Source: an uncultured Sphingomonas sp. (lineage in GTDB: Bacteria > Pseudomonadota > Alphaproteobacteria > Sphingomonadales > Sphingomonadaceae). From it: DNA of 64,000 nucleotides. Numbering within the stretch: the first letter of the stretch is position 1; the number at the start of each line of letters is the position of its first letter. Location: NCBI RefSeq assembly GCF_913062585.1, contig NZ_CAJXWX010000002.1:62001-126000 (forward strand). The letters run 5' to 3'. Both the position numbers and the translations under genes were made by a program. Positions 44,900 to 50,882 of the stretch are shown piece after piece. The notes under the pieces are model-generated. The model was given only the letters and a program-made list of their open reading frames with translations, was not told the origin of the DNA and ran no database searches.

Positions 44900-46000
44900 G
44901 TGAGCGCGCTCCTCGAACTCGCGGTCGTGATCCCGACCTTCAACGAGCGCGCGAATGTGCCCGTGCTCATCGCCAAGCTCGACCAGGCGCTGGCCGGGCG
45001 GCGGTGGGAGGCGATCTTCGTCGACGACAACAGCCCCGACGGCACCGCCGATGCCGCGCGCGAGCTGGGCAAGGTCGATCCCCGCGTCCGGGTGATCCAG
45101 CGGATCGGGCGGCGCGGGCTGTCCTCGGCCTGTATCGAGGGGATGTGTGCCACCGCCGCGCCGATGGTGGCGGTGATCGACGGCGATCTGCAGCATGATG
45201 AGACGCTGCTGCCGAAGATGCTCGACCGGTTGCAGGCGGAAAGCGACCTCGACCTGGTCGTCGGCTCGCGCTTCGTCGATGGCGGCGGCACTGGCGACTG
45301 GGACCGCGACCGGGTCGCCAAGTCGGCCTTTGCGACGAAGCTGTCGCAGCGGGTGCTGAATGTGAACCTGTCCGACCCGATGAGCGGCTTCTTCATGGTC
45401 CGCACGGCGGTGGCGCGCGGGACGGTGCCGCATCTGTCGGGCATCGGCTTCAAGATCCTGCTCGACATCATGAGCGCCTCGCCGCGTCCGCTGCGTGCCG
45501 CCGAAATGCCCTATGTGTTCCGCGTGCGGACCGAGGGTGAGTCTAAGCTCGATCATGTCGTGGCGATGGAATATCTGATCGCGCTGTACGACCGCCGCTT
45601 CGGCAAGGTGGTGCCGGTGCGTTTCGCCATGTTCTCGGCGATCGGCGTGCTGGGCGTGGGCGTGCATATGGCGGTGATCAGCCTGTTCTTCGTGGCTCTG
45701 GGCGCCACCTTCCTCGCTAGCCAGATCGTCGCGGTGGCGGCGGCGATGACGTTCAACTTCTTCCTGAACAATGCGCTGACCTATCGCGACCGGCGCTTGC
45801 GCGGGTTCAAGCCGCTGCTCGACGGTTGGGTGTCCTTCTGCCTGGTCTGCGCGGTGGGGGCGATCGCCAATGTCGGCGTCGCGGCCTTCCTGCACGATGC
45901 GCGGGCCAATGAATGGGCGGTGTCGGCGCTGATCGGCGTGCTGGTAGGCGCGGTGTGGAATTATGCGCTGTCGTCGCGGTTCGTCTGGGGGCGGTATTGA
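44900..46000 (+). CDS. Polyprenyl-phosphate glycosyltransferase (GT2) fused to GtrA membrane domain
   Basis: This 366-residue protein has two parts. Residues 1 to about 225 are a GT2 domain of the dolichyl/polyprenyl-phosphate-mannose-synthase type: VVIPTFNERANVP, DDNSPDGTAD, RGLSSACIEGM, DGDLQHDETLLPKM and SDPMSGFFMVR. From about 235 to the end is a four-helix GtrA-like domain (FAMFSAIGVLGVGVHMAV, NFFLNNALTYRDRRLRG). It probably makes a lipid-linked sugar and keeps it at the membrane. The start GTG 44900 follows leuB by five bases. Confidence 0.92.
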   Translation: MSALLELAVVIPTFNERANVPVLIAKLDQALAGRRWEAIFVDDNSPDGTADAARELGKVDPRVRVIQRIGRRGLSSACIEGMCATAAPMVAVIDGDLQHDETLLPKMLDRLQAESDLDLVVGSRFVDGGGTGDWDRDRVAKSAFATKLSQRVLNVNLSDPMSGFFMVRTAVARGTVPHLSGIGFKILLDIMSASPRPLRAAEMPYVFRVRTEGESKLDHVVAMEYLIALYDRRFGKVVPVRFAMFSAIGVLGVGVHMAVISLFFVALGATFLASQIVAVAAAMTFNFFLNNALTYRDRRLRGFKPLLDGWVSFCLVCAVGAIANVGVAAFLHDARANEWAVSALIGVLVGAVWNYALSSRFVWGRY

Positions 46001-46014
46001 TCGAGGCGTTGGGC

Positions 46015-46101
46015 GTGGCCTTCGACTTCGCTCAGGCGGAACGGAGCGAGGGGATCGAACCCAACCCCCGTTCGGGCTGAGCGAAGTCGAAGCCCAAGGG
46101 A
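46015..46101. repeat. Paired inverted repeat, family A (copy 9)
   Basis: CTTCGACTTCGCTCAGGC and GTTCGGGCTGAGCGAAGTCG frame the short convergent gap between the GT2-GtrA and PMT-family genes. Confidence 0.8.
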
Positions 46102-46106
46102 AACCC

Positions 46107-47363
46107 TCACCGCCAATCGGTAAACCACGTCCACCGAAGGAAGGACCTCGGTCCCGCCAAGGCCCCGGCGGTCAGGATCGGGTAGAAATAGAAGAACAGA
46201 CAGACGGCCGCGACCAGATAGGCCTCGTCCCAGTCGCGCAGCCACGCCCGCCACCGGTCGATCGCCACCGCCAGCGCCACCGACAGCCAGATGGCGGGCA
46301 GGAAGTAATAATAATAGAAGCCCAGCGACTTGGGGATGATCGCCCACACCGCGAAGCCGCCGATCCAGAGCGCGGCCGCAAAGCCCAGCCGCACCTCGCG
46401 CGTCCGCAGCCAGCCGAGCGCGCACACCGCCACCGCGACCAGTCCGCCCCACATCACCGCCGGATTGCCGAGCAGGAAGATGCCCCGCTGCGCCCCGTCC
46501 GCCACCTGATAGAAATACCAGATCGGCCGCCCGATGACCGGCCAGCTCCACCAGCTGGACTGATAATGATGCGGCGGCAGCACCTGTGTCTGGCGCGCAT
46601 ACATCTCCAGCTGAAAGGGCAGGAGGTTCGCCAGCGTCATCGGCTCGCGGGCATAGAAGAAGGCGGGCGCGAAGGTGGCGAGATAGGCCGACCCCGCCGC
46701 CAGCCCGAGCAGACCCCAGGCCGACCACCAGCGCAGGCCCGGCCAGCGCGTCGAATCGCCGCGCTTCATCAGTACGAAGCCGATCGCGGCATAGCCGAGA
46801 TAGGGCACCGCCGCCCATTTCACCCCGATCGCCAGCCCCAGCAGCACCGCACCCAGCGTCCAGCGCCACCGGCTCTGCGCCGGGCTGCCCCGCATCGCCC
46901 AGCCCATGGTCGCGACCGCCAGCACGACAAAGGCCGCCATGAACCCGTCGAGCATCGCGATCCGCGCCTGGACCAACACCATGAAGTCGACCAGCGTCAG
47001 CCCACCCGCGATCGCCGCCGCCCGCGTCCGCCTGGTCATCAGCCAGACGATGCCGAACACCCCGCCGACGATCGCGGTCCCGGCCAAGGTCGACAGCGCC
47101 CGCCAGCCGAGCGGCCCGTCGCCGAAGAGCAGGATGCCCAGCGCGATCAGCGCCTTGCCGAGCAGCGGATGCTCGATATTCACCGGCCCCTCCAGCGCCA
47201 GCAGCGTGCGCGCGGCGGGGACATAATGGATCTCGTCGAACACCAGCATGTGCGGCGTGGTCAGCCGCCAGCAGAACAGCGCCTGCGCGGCGACCAGCAG
47301 GGCGAGCAGGGCCGGGACCGGACGATGGAGCGGAGCAAGCAGGCGACGCATGACCGGGGTCAT
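46107..47363 (-). CDS. PMT-family (GT39-like) membrane glycosyltransferase
   Basis: The 418-residue protein is polytopic (about ten or more helices). Near the N-terminus it has LVFDEIHYVPAARTLL (an acidic DE in the first periplasmic loop) and VNIEHPLLGKALIALGI, which are dolichyl-phosphate-mannose protein mannosyltransferase signatures. Enzymes of this type take sugar from a polyprenyl-phosphate donor. The acceptor may be protein or another glycan. It is convergent with the GT2-GtrA gene that could supply the donor. The start MTPVMRRLL at 47363 avoids a short poorly supported extension. Confidence 0.9.
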   Translation of the reverse strand: MTPVMRRLLAPLHRPVPALLALLVAAQALFCWRLTTPHMLVFDEIHYVPAARTLLALEGPVNIEHPLLGKALIALGILLFGDGPLGWRALSTLAGTAIVGGVFGIVWLMTRRTRAAAIAGGLTLVDFMVLVQARIAMLDGFMAAFVVLAVATMGWAMRGSPAQSRWRWTLGAVLLGLAIGVKWAAVPYLGYAAIGFVLMKRGDSTRWPGLRWWSAWGLLGLAAGSAYLATFAPAFFYAREPMTLANLLPFQLEMYARQTQVLPPHHYQSSWWSWPVIGRPIWYFYQVADGAQRGIFLLGNPAVMWGGLVAVAVCALGWLRTREVRLGFAAALWIGGFAVWAIIPKSLGFYYYYFLPAIWLSVALAVAIDRWRAWLRDWDEAYLVAAVCLFFYFYPILTAGALAGPRSFLRWTWFTDWR

Positions 47364-47526
47364 GGCGGGCCGGGCAGACCGGCACAAATGCTTTTTCGGT
47401 AAGTGCCTCTATTACAAAATATCCCTAACCGATCCTTTAGAGTCTGTCCTTATGTCGCTTTTCCCGGAGCGAATTCCATTGGCCGATTGGGGGCAATACG
47501 GCCGCAACAGGGGAACGAACGGCGCT

Positions 47527-48861
47527 ATGGGTTGGCTGGGCAAGAAGGAAGCGAGTCTGAAGGATCGGCTGGCGAGGGCGGTCTTCGAGCATTCGCCTGA
47601 TGCAATGATGCTGTTGTCGAATGGGCTTTTCGTCGCGGCCAATGCCGCCGCCGAGCGGATCTATGAACGTCCCGTGAGCGATGTGATCGGTCAGAATCCC
47701 GCGACCTTTTCCGCCCCCTGCCAGGCGGATGGCCGACCGACCGAAATTCATGTCGAAGAACGGGTGAACCAGGCCCTGAAGGACGGTTACGCCCGTTTCG
47801 AATGGTTGAACCTGGATGGCCGGGGGCAGGTGAAGCGCTTCCTCGTCACGCTGATTCCCGCCCATGTCGTGACGCCGCAGGACATACTGATCCTGTGCCA
47901 GGAGATGGGCGAGACGATGGCGATGGTGAACCAGCTGGGCGACGGCCTCTCGCGCCTGGCCAATGGCGATCTGACCCACCGTATCGAGACGCCGTTCCGC
48001 GAAGATTACGAGCCGCTGCGCCTGCACTTCAACGAAACCGCACAGATGCTGGGCGATTCGATCCAGTCGATCCATGAGTCGTCGCAGCGGGTGAACAATG
48101 CCGCCTCGGAGATCGGCAAGGCGGCGGGCGACCTGTCGCGCCGTACTGAGCATCAGGCGGCGTCGCTGGAGGAAACGGCGGCGGCCATGCGGCAGGTGAC
48201 GACCGCGATCCAGGAATCGGCACACCATGGTGCCAAGGCCGCGCAGGTCGCCGCCTCGGCCCAGAGCAATGCCGCGCAAAGCGGCGTGGTCGTGCAGCGC
48301 GCGATCGACGCGATGGGCGGGATCGAGCGGACCTCCAGTGAAATCTCCGAGATCATCGGCGTGATCGACGGCATCGCCTTCCAGACCAACCTGCTTGCGC
48401 TCAATGCCGGCGTCGAGGCGGCGCGGGCGGGCGATGCGGGCAAGGGCTTCGCGGTCGTCGCCTCCGAAGTCCGCGCGCTGGCGCAGCGTTCGGCCGATGC
48501 CGCCAAGGACGTGAAGAGCCGGATCGGTGCGTCCGATGCGCAGATCCGCGCCGGGGTGCAGGAAGTCGATGCCGCCGGGGCGACGCTGCAGCGGATCGCG
48601 GGGCAGGTCGGCGAAATGGCCTCGCTGATCGATGAGATCGCCAGTGCATCTCAGCAACAGGCGAGCAGCGCGGCCCAGATCACGACCGCGATCAGCGATC
48701 TGGATGCCGTCACCCAGCAAAATGCCGCGATGGTCGAAGAGGCGACCGCCGCCGCCCGCGAACTGGTGGGCGAGGCGAGCGCGATGAACAGCCAGGTCGG
48801 CCGCTTCCGCCTGGCCACGCGCGCGTCGGGCACGGTGCAACCGCTTTGGAAGGCGGCCTGA
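47527..48861 (+). CDS. Cytoplasmic methyl-accepting chemotaxis protein (PAS-HAMP-MA)
   Basis: The 444-residue protein lacks a transmembrane helix. It has an N-terminal PAS domain (FEHSPDAMMLLSNGLFVAANAAAERIYE), a HAMP-like segment (VNQLGDGLSRLANGDLTHRI) and a long MCP signalling coiled coil with the hairpin tip EIIGVIDGIAFQTNLLALNAGVEAARAG-type sequence. It should sense a soluble or cytoplasmic signal. No che gene is adjacent. The start is MGWLGKKEAS at ATG 47527 with AGGGGAA upstream; ATG 47452 is an alternative. Confidence 0.92.
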   Translation: MGWLGKKEASLKDRLARAVFEHSPDAMMLLSNGLFVAANAAAERIYERPVSDVIGQNPATFSAPCQADGRPTEIHVEERVNQALKDGYARFEWLNLDGRGQVKRFLVTLIPAHVVTPQDILILCQEMGETMAMVNQLGDGLSRLANGDLTHRIETPFREDYEPLRLHFNETAQMLGDSIQSIHESSQRVNNAASEIGKAAGDLSRRTEHQAASLEETAAAMRQVTTAIQESAHHGAKAAQVAASAQSNAAQSGVVVQRAIDAMGGIERTSSEISEIIGVIDGIAFQTNLLALNAGVEAARAGDAGKGFAVVASEVRALAQRSADAAKDVKSRIGASDAQIRAGVQEVDAAGATLQRIAGQVGEMASLIDEIASASQQQASSAAQITTAISDLDAVTQQNAAMVEEATAAARELVGEASAMNSQVGRFRLATRASGTVQPLWKAA

Positions 48862-49010: not shown

Positions 49011-50882
49011 GTGACCCAGCGGTTCCGACCGATGATTCTGGCCATATTGGCGGCAAGCGCGCTGTCGCCCTATCCTGCGCAGGCTCAGGCGCCGGCGCCG
49101 ACCGCCAATGACGGCCCGGCGCGCAGCTTCGTGGTGCAGGGCAAGGGTTTCCTGCGCAACGGCCAGCCGCATCAGGTGATCTCGGGCGAGATGCATTATG
49201 TCCGCATCCCGCGCGCCTATTGGCGCGACCGGTTGCGCAAGGCCAAGGCGATGGGGCTGAACACCATCACCACCTATGCCTTTTGGAACGCGCATGAGCC
49301 GCGCCCGGGCGTCTATGACTTCAGCGGTCAGAACGACATCGTCGCCTTCATCCGCGATGCGCAGGCCGAGGGGCTGGACGTGATCCTGCGCCCCGGCCCC
49401 TATGTCTGCGCCGAATGGGAACTGGGCGGCTATCCGTCCTGGCTGCTCAAGGACCGCAGCCTCGTCCTGCGCTCGACCGACCCGAAATATACCGCCGCGG
49501 TCGATCGCTGGCTGATGCGGCTGGGGCAGGAGGTGAAGCCGCTGCTGCTGAAGAATGGCGGGCCGATCGTCGCGGTGCAGCTGGAAAACGAATATGGCGC
49601 GTTCGGCAGCGACCAGGATTATCTGCGCGGGCTGGAGGCCAGCTACAAGCGCGCCGGGCTGGGCGACGGGATTTTGTTCACGTCGAACCAGGCGGGCGAC
49701 CTGGCCAAGGGGTCGCTACCCAATCTGCCCTCGGTCGTGAATTTCGGGTCGGGCGGCGCCGAGAATGCGGTCGCCAAGCTGGAGGCTTATCGCCCGGACG
49801 GCTTGCGCATGGTCGGCGAGTACTGGGCGGGCTGGTTCGACAAATGGGGCGAGGAGCATCACGAGACGGACGGCAAAAAAGAGGCTGAGGAAATGGCCTA
49901 TATGCTCAAGCGCGGCTATTCGATCTCGCTCTACATGGTGCATGGCGGCACCACCTTCGGCTGGATGAACGGCGCGGATTCGCACACCGGCAAGGATTAT
50001 CACCCCGACACGACCAGCTATGACTATGACGCGCCGATCGATGAGGCGGGCAATCCGCGCTACAAATACGGCCTGATCGCCGCCGCCATCGCCGAGGTGA
50101 CCGGCAAGCCCGCAGCACCCACCCCCGCGCCGACCGTGGCGACGACCTTCCCGGTGTCGGCGGTGCGGCGCAGCGCCTCGCTCTGGGACAATCTGCCGAC
50201 GCCCGTGCGGGCCGAAAAGCCGATGACGTTCGAGGAACTCGACCAGAATTACGGTTATGTCCTCTACCGCGTCACCGTGCCCGCCGGCGCGGCGGGGCCG
50301 CTGACGCTGAAGGGGATGCACAGCTATGCCCAGGTCTATCTCGACAAGACGCTCGTCGGAACGCTCGACCGGCGGCTGGATCAGGAGACGGTCGAACTGC
50401 CCGCCCGGGCCAAGCCGAGAGTGTTGAACATCCTGGTCGAGAATACCGGCCGCGTGAACTATTCCCACGCGATCCGCACCGAGCAGACCGGTCTGACCGG
50501 CGCGGTGACGCTGGCGGGTGCGCCCTTGCGCGATTGGCAGATGTTCCGCCTGCCGATGGACAATCTGGCCGGCCTGAAGCTCTCGGCCAGGCCGTGCAGC
50601 GGTCCCTGTTTCTATGAGGCGGAGATGACGGTCGCCAAGCCCGGCGACACCTATCTCGACATGCGGGGCGCGCATAAGGGGCAGTTGTGGCTCAACGACC
50701 ATAATCTGGGTCGTTTCTGGGGCATCGGGCCGGTGCATACGCTCTATACGCCTGCGCCCTGGCTGAAGGCGGGGGCGAACCGGGTGCTGTTCTTCGATCT
50801 GACCGGGGATGCCAGCGACCGGCTGAGCACGGTGGACAAGCCGATCTACGGCAAGGTGACGAACCACCGCGAGGCGCAGTAA
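49011..50882 (+). CDS. Secreted GH35 family beta-galactosidase
   Basis: The 623-residue protein has a signal peptide (MTQRFRPMILAILAASALSPYPAQAQ) and a GH35 (beta/alpha)8 barrel. The catalytic acid is E194 in QLENEYG and the nucleophile is E270 in VGEYWAGWFDKWG. The hallmark SGEMHYVRIPRAYWRDRL lies at about 58-75. C-terminal beta domains (from about 395) should assist substrate binding. It likely removes beta-galactosyl residues from plant or bacterial polysaccharide in the periplasm. The start GTG 49011 has GGAGAG five bases upstream. Confidence 0.95.
   Translation: MTQRFRPMILAILAASALSPYPAQAQAPAPTANDGPARSFVVQGKGFLRNGQPHQVISGEMHYVRIPRAYWRDRLRKAKAMGLNTITTYAFWNAHEPRPGVYDFSGQNDIVAFIRDAQAEGLDVILRPGPYVCAEWELGGYPSWLLKDRSLVLRSTDPKYTAAVDRWLMRLGQEVKPLLLKNGGPIVAVQLENEYGAFGSDQDYLRGLEASYKRAGLGDGILFTSNQAGDLAKGSLPNLPSVVNFGSGGAENAVAKLEAYRPDGLRMVGEYWAGWFDKWGEEHHETDGKKEAEEMAYMLKRGYSISLYMVHGGTTFGWMNGADSHTGKDYHPDTTSYDYDAPIDEAGNPRYKYGLIAAAIAEVTGKPAAPTPAPTVATTFPVSAVRRSASLWDNLPTPVRAEKPMTFEELDQNYGYVLYRVTVPAGAAGPLTLKGMHSYAQVYLDKTLVGTLDRRLDQETVELPARAKPRVLNILVENTGRVNYSHAIRTEQTGLTGAVTLAGAPLRDWQMFRLPMDNLAGLKLSARPCSGPCFYEAEMTVAKPGDTYLDMRGAHKGQLWLNDHNLGRFWGIGPVHTLYTPAPWLKAGANRVLFFDLTGDASDRLSTVDKPIYGKVTNHREAQ

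Follow-up and report, generated by a model that had tools for sequence, protein, structure and literature searches.

Bacterial protein O-mannosylation has been demonstrated in actinobacteria (PMC12331936), and the system of Streptomyces coelicolor has been described as the polyprenol-phosphate-mannose synthase Ppm1 together with the GT39 enzyme Pmt (PMC5882110). In the literature searched, which was open-licence only, bacterial protein O-mannosyltransferases (PMTs) beyond Actinobacteria appeared little studied, and no study of such a PMT in Sphingomonadales was found. We analyzed a 64,000-nucleotide stretch of DNA from an uncultured Sphingomonas sp. (hereinafter referred to as the window; C2:62001-126000 of a 3.9 Mb genome, the completeness of which was rated 100%). 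The window carries a gene for a GT2-GtrA fusion protein (44900..46000, plus strand; hereafter the synthase) and, convergent to it, a PMT-type gene (46107..47363, minus strand). With moderate confidence, sequence comparison and a structural model suggest that the two genes encode a two-enzyme protein O-mannosylation system. The pair looks like a Gram-negative addition to a reaction type known from yeast and mycobacteria.

In the proposed mechanism, the GT2-GtrA enzyme would move mannose from GDP-mannose onto polyprenyl phosphate at the cytoplasmic face of the membrane. The acceptor lipid of this step would presumably be undecaprenyl phosphate, because the synthase is bacterial. On the periplasmic side, PMT would then take mannose from its probable donor, polyprenyl-P-Man, and attach it to Ser/Thr of exported proteins, D43 serving as the base.

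The window pair resembles the actinobacterial Ppm1/Pmt system and the PMT of Mycobacterium tuberculosis (MtPMT) in that the same two activities are expected and that the transferase has a DE motif and a second Asp and lacks a MIR domain. It differs in its Gram-negative host, in which no LpxC match was found, in the GtrA-type domain on the synthase, as in the archaeal enzyme, in a K-x3-F motif at the position of R-x2-Y in MtPMT, and in that the two genes are convergent neighbours. A minimal PMT with an adjoining DPMS partner in a tractable Gram-negative bacterium would allow the role of the modification to be probed without mycobacterial envelope chemistry, and a small MIR-free PMT would be useful for structural work.

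A putative protein O-mannosyltransferase and its acceptor

The transferase gene, starting with ATG at 47363, encodes a protein of 418 amino acids, which is assigned by sequence and fold as a GT39 PMT core without a MIR domain, as bacterial PMTs are described (PMC12331936); its function is predicted. PF02366 (43.9 bits) covers the N-terminal half and PF16192 PMT_4TMC (39.3 bits) the C-terminal half, and PF13231 was also matched (26.4 bits; cut-off, 26.1), all above cut-offs. The best match was the NCBIfam protein O-mannosyltransferase model, which was matched partially and with 65.3 bits, far under its cut-off of 800.

The DE and EHP(L)LGK signatures that the original prediction, made from the letters of this DNA, had read in the convergent neighbour are present, and it had placed both genes correctly. 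In an alignment of 103 sequences (101 different; the window's own included), D43, E44, E64, H65, P66, K70, and R88 were identical in all. The DE motif (D43-E44; 47232..47237, minus strand) lies in the first external loop, aligns with D77/E78 of yeast Pmt1, corresponds to D74 of MtPMT, the role of which has been described (PMC12331936), and is the candidate catalytic base. The EHPLLGK motif occupies residues 64-70 (47154..47174, minus strand), with E, H, P, and K in 103/103. RIAMLD (residues 134-139; 46947..46964, minus strand) contains the second acidic residue, D139, located in external loop 2, which is Asp in 97 of the 103 sequences and Glu in the other 6 and corresponds to Pmt1 D189 and MtPMT D176. 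In external loop 5, K345-x3-F349 (46317..46331, minus strand), with both residues in 103/103, may take the place of the phosphate-binding Rx2Y/F motif found in other PMTs; F349 aligns with Pmt1 F652, and K345, with x3 spacing, is one column off Pmt1 R649. MtPMT depends on D74, D176, R441, and Y444, and its R441K variant retains nearly full activity (PMC12331936). The first two have counterparts in the window PMT, and R441 and Y444 would correspond to the invariant K345 and F349, with the spacing increased by one residue.

A single-sequence search of the PDB with PMT gave no match at E ≤ 1. A profile built on 30 of the 91 family matches detected yeast Pmt1 (1.6e-17), in two stretches that flank the MIR region, as well as the fungal Pmt 9i5k (9e-13) and Pmt4 (1.1e-5). 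The AlphaFold2 model, built from 56 sequences (55 from the 80 named loci, which are the best 80 of 565 PMT relatives, and the window's PMT), had a pLDDT of 90.4 and a pTM of 0.91. Structure prediction had been proposed as a check in the original prediction, and the model matched PMTs confidently: it aligned with Chaetomium Pmt4 over 402 of 418 residues (Z 38.1; root-mean-square deviation (rmsd), 2.7), with yeast Pmt2 (6p25_B) at Z 36.5, and in Foldseek ranks 1-7 were all PMT chains. The fold is common to fungal Pmt1, Pmt2, and Pmt4 (6p25, 9e61, 9i5k) over ~400 residues (Z 35-38), as are the motifs DE, HPxLxK, second Asp, HxYxS...W...R, and LGN, whereas the MIR domain of the fungal enzymes is missing. 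A beta hairpin at 281-297 (strands 281-288 and 291-297) occupies the position of the external loop 4 (EL4) hairpin, which has been placed at the acceptor groove (PMC12331936). Some PMTs lie within long open reading frames of up to 1320 amino acids, which were considered as fusions; this was rejected, and they were taken as antisense to the divergent neighbour.

Within 199 genomes of the family, PMT was found in 91 (44/96 genera). Among the named relatives (the best 80 of 565), the nearest are those of Sphingomonas sp. LC-1 (92% identity) and of S. sanguinis and its kin (86-89%). In a 289-genome sample of the class, full-length matches occurred in the same family only (4 genomes), the other 21 being partial and weak; in a 398-genome sample of the phylum, 12 genomes of the family had them, as did 9 from a single further genus (f161/g320). 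Up to 6 candidates per genome were scored in the class sample and up to 4 in the phylum sample, so that a miss in these samples is no proof of absence. The f161/g320 genomes are 6-9 Mb in size and gave 271-288 bits. Their PMT relatives (L251-L258; ~31-35% identity) belong to large-genome alphaproteobacteria, probably Bradyrhizobium; the column of K345 was Arg in 8/8 of them, and no GT2-GtrA was found within the 16-19 kb fetched at 8/8 of these loci (8 of the 9 genomes; these loci only). One genome of another class (G671) gave three weak pieces (3-66, 68-213, and 261-411) that together make up most of the profile.

With regard to the acceptor, ArnC and ArnT provide a comparison in which a polyprenyl-P-sugar synthase and a GT-C transferase serve the transfer of L-Ara4N to lipid A. 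The window pair shares this synthase-plus-GT-C logic, and the GT-C fold is common to both transferases (Z 26.9; rmsd, 3.9; 344 residues aligned), but both window proteins matched much more weakly. The ArnT family was rejected for PMT, since its fold ranked well below the PMTs and the profile gave no ArnT match at E ≤ 0.01. No LpxC match was found in the genome, rated 100% complete, in a search in which the LpxC control was positive in 4 of 14 genomes, including E. coli and Caulobacter. Lipid A was therefore rejected as the acceptor and is unlikely to be modified, and so is the action on lipopolysaccharide (LPS) that the original prediction had named as the finding that would overturn it. Sphingomonadaceae-type bacteria are not known to make lipid A (tested here in this genome), and in sphingomonads a glycosphingolipid replaces LPS.

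These features raise an alternative with the same chemistry, in which an outer-membrane glycolipid, e.g., a glycosphingolipid, would receive the polyprenyl-P-linked hexose from the PMT-type enzyme. The envelope should depend on glycolipids other than lipid A if LpxC is missing, and the lipid-acting ArnT shares the fold. Sgt1 and Sgt2 have been described as ceramide glycosyltransferases of sphingomonads (PMC13318209, 2026), and several of the glycosyltransferases that build bacterial glycosphingolipids are described as still unidentified (PMC13028669, 2026); the terms 'dolichyl' and 'GT39' are absent from the main text of both papers. We nevertheless regard a glycolipid acceptor as unlikely. 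The best structure and sequence matches were all PMTs with protein acceptors, ~8-11 Z units above ArnT, and the enzyme possesses the EL4 hairpin as well as the PMT_4TMC half. Further, 108 of the 199 family genomes gave no PMT match, and full-length relatives occur in the nine genomes of f161/g320. Bradyrhizobium, the probable identity of that genus, makes LPS. The fold and the conserved PMT-specific loops of the model point to a protein rather than a glycosphingolipid as the probable acceptor in the proposed O-mannosylation system.

Link between synthase and transferase

The original prediction had proposed a dedicated lipid-linked sugar supply and transfer pair, for which it relied on the co-location of the two genes. 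The pair is conserved in relatives: in the 91 PMT genomes, it was convergent within 2 kb in 73 and within 20 kb in 77, and the remaining 14 had the genes on different contigs (6), in other arrangements or at other distances (7), or no full-length synthase (1). In the 80 named loci, the synthase was convergent in 56 (≤ 500 bp away in 51, farther but within 2 kb in 4, and 3.7 kb away in 1). However, the block recO-leuB-synthase/PMT-metZ-apaG-lysR is inherited as a whole. In a neighbour control using the 70 loci flanked on both sides by ≥ 5.5 kb, the synthase was found in 48, compared with 57 for leuB, 59 for recO, 60 for metZ, 60 for apaG, and 59 for lysR. Because these housekeeping neighbours were kept at least as well, the adjacency of synthase and PMT is weak evidence with little functional weight, and it was rejected as an argument for function. 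A block of the Sphingomonas type, including synthase, leuB, and recO (63-81% identity), also occurs in two genome records whose names, 'Arthrobacter sp. TPD3018' (L133) and 'Bacillus sp. 2B10' (L142), look wrong.

Co-occurrence and the change of synthase provided a stronger argument for linkage than co-location. A GT2-GtrA protein with > 250 bits was found in 117 of the 199 family genomes, that is, in 90/91 genomes with PMT vs 27/108 without it; the counts ignore shared ancestry, and some genomes occur in both the family sample and the named loci. Only two of the 117 (G025 and G027) had two copies > 250 bits, and both lacked PMT. For the 24 named loci without a local synthase (i.e., none in the fetched DNA; two of these loci had short flanks), the genome contained an intact copy elsewhere in 22 cases, a copy split over contig ends in one, and contig-end scraps only in one. 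Seven of these copies were close (70-78% identity) and 15 were diverged but full-length (48-59% identity); at least one of the close copies, that of the L127 genome (G155 in the family sample), lies only ~7 kb away.

In the synthase tree, all 75 PMT-locus copies formed one clade (local support, 99; 16 duplicate loci were dropped). Outside this clade fell 14/14 copies from PMT-lacking genomes, for which 14 of the 27 synthase-bearing ones were taken, and 16/16 diverged copies located elsewhere in PMT genomes. On the PMT tree, at least 9 changes of synthase type were counted, of which well-supported branches require 8, with 100 of the 103 rows labelled (L131, L146, and L069 unlabelled) and with seven close synthases and the split one labelled by identity, not by tree placement. 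Both trees were made with FastTree and carry local support only, and the change count covers PMT carriers and cannot tell loss from gain. That PMT is kept while its synthases change is as expected if PMT depends on the synthase product.

The alternative that the two enzymes work in separate pathways, and became neighbours through vertical inheritance of the recO-leuB ... metZ-apaG block, agrees with the lower retention of the synthase than of the other five genes, with the convergent genes that form no operon, and with the position of leuB directly after PMT in 10/15 examined synthase-less loci (9 by open reading frame call and L146 by tblastn). It is improbable in view of the genome-wide co-occurrence among the sampled PMT carriers, the presence of a synthase or its contig-end remains in 24/24 genomes without one beside PMT, and the occurrence of the pair's synthase clade in 0/14 PMT-lacking genomes on the tree.

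Strict dedication was not supported, since some synthases elsewhere adjoin other GT-C-like enzymes. Eight proteins beside synthases elsewhere, picked by eye among those listed, included four that matched the GT-C family PMT_2, one above the cut-off, and of three tested neighbours of diverged synthases in PMT genomes without a local copy, two matched PMT_2, one above the cut-off. Because half of the eight match this family, the polyprenyl-linked donor may be shared between GT-C enzymes. Diverged synthases outside the block (L216, L085, L091, L223, and others) often adjoin large membrane proteins of ~500 amino acids, the group in which four of eight tested matched PMT_2. The original prediction identified the two enzymes correctly, and the relation of supply and transfer is plausible and well supported, whereas the argument from co-location failed, with 48/70 against 57-60/70 for unrelated neighbours. 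The word 'dedicated' fits the absence of the pair's clade from the 14 PMT-lacking genomes on the tree, but not the diverged synthase elsewhere in 15 of the 24 genomes or the PMT_2-like neighbours.

In a wider view, we consider it evenly balanced whether just under half of the Sphingomonadaceae-type genomes sampled (91/199) run a periplasmic, eukaryote-like protein O-mannosylation, with a minimal MIR-free PMT, an often-exchanged donor synthase, and one polyprenyl-P-Man pool feeding several GT-C enzymes.

The putative synthase and its sugar

The synthase gene, which has a GTG start and a stop codon ending at 46000, encodes 366 amino acids and is a probable polyprenyl-phosphate-mannose synthase. 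The GT2 catalytic domain (residues 9-172; 44924..45415, plus strand; PF00535 best stretch, 99.1 bits) is followed by the GtrA/DPMS transmembrane domain (residues 245-363; 45632..45988, plus strand; PF04138 best stretch, 75 bits). Both scores were above curated cut-offs, confirming the polyprenyl-phosphate sugar synthase motifs and the GtrA membrane domain noted in the original prediction. In a PDB search, Pyrococcus furiosus DPMS (PfDPMS; 5mlz) aligned over residues 5-363 (E 8e-51), followed by ArnC and GtrB chains (E 2e-9 to 5e-6). The synthase shares with the archaeal enzyme a GT2 domain joined to a GtrA-type membrane domain, and differs from it in being bacterial.

Fifteen of the positions at which PfDPMS binds GDP-Man, metal, or dolichyl phosphate (Dol-P) (PMC5526996) were mapped onto the synthase; Leu69, also named there, was left out. 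Thirteen were identical in 75/75 PMT-locus copies (the window's included), namely E16, D43, D94, D96, Q98, H99, R124, R138, S142, F184, K185, R210, and K216, which correspond to E12, D39, D89, D91, Q93, H94, R117, R131, S135, F177, K178, R202, and K208 of PfDPMS. In 30 synthases sampled elsewhere, 12 of the 13 positions were identical in all, and the counterpart of Pf F177 was Phe in 19 of them and Tyr in the other 11. The metal/sugar-binding motif DGDLQH (45179..45196, plus strand) corresponds to 89-DADLQH-94 of PfDPMS, and H99 is the counterpart of the residue that touches the C3 hydroxyl of mannose; the glucose enzyme GtrB has DADLQD, not DADLQH, and thus Asp at this position (PMC5526996). 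In addition, an intact GDP-mannose pyrophosphorylase domain is encoded in the genome. The contact residues and homology favour mannose as the sugar, short of proof, because AepG, a DPMS-like archaeal enzyme, produces Dol-P-glucuronic acid (PMC9943897). A supply-and-transfer pair with glucose, galactose, or uronic acid as the donor sugar, to which AepG and family names that leave the sugar unfixed lend some room, is very improbable given the near full-length likeness to the GDP-mannose enzyme, the fit of its contact residues including H99, and the GDP-mannose supply.

Several points weigh against the two-enzyme protein O-mannosylation system, among them the product of AepG, the neighbour control, and the ancestry left uncorrected in the co-occurrence counts. 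Two mapped synthase positions are variable (G122, 67 Gly and 8 Ala; E206, Glu in 73/75), and the K345-x3-F349 of PMT departs from the R-x2-Y of MtPMT. Moreover, PMT meets no universal need, because it was not found in more than half of the family genomes (108/199), and in one PMT genome (G018), which is 85% complete and has a fragmentary PMT, no full-length synthase was found.

Gene arrangement and surroundings

The convergent synthase and PMT genes are separated by a gap of 106 bp, which contains a REP-like inverted repeat (46016..46096, no strand assigned) with 29-nt arms and a 23-nt spacer. Eight such pairs, this one included, occur in the window, and the repeat is not specific to the gene pair. 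The REP-like palindromic family, with the core CTTCGACTTCGCTCAG, has 18 matches in the window at ≤ 1 mismatch vs 0.00 expected; 16 of them form eight inverted pairs 54-68 bp apart (1563/1617, 9743/9802, 22644/22710, 29980/30048, 31705/31771, 39512/39576, 46020/46077, and 61752/61810), and two are single (2770 and 14155).

Between PMT and metZ, this strain carries genes for a methyl-accepting chemotaxis protein (47248-48861) and a GH35 beta-galactosidase (49011-50882), both of which most relatives lack at this place (present in 6/70 and 4/70 related loci, respectively). The original prediction had seen no other glycan genes nearby and overlooked the GH35 gene, which starts 1.6 kb past PMT and encodes a hydrolase.

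Elsewhere in the genome, a weak second GT-C was detected on contig C23 (23 bits to PF13231, below the cut-off). A stand-alone GtrA protein of 142 amino acids (G000:C1:353043-353402; L002), the sole other GtrA match in the genome, adjoins a methyltransferase-like open reading frame.

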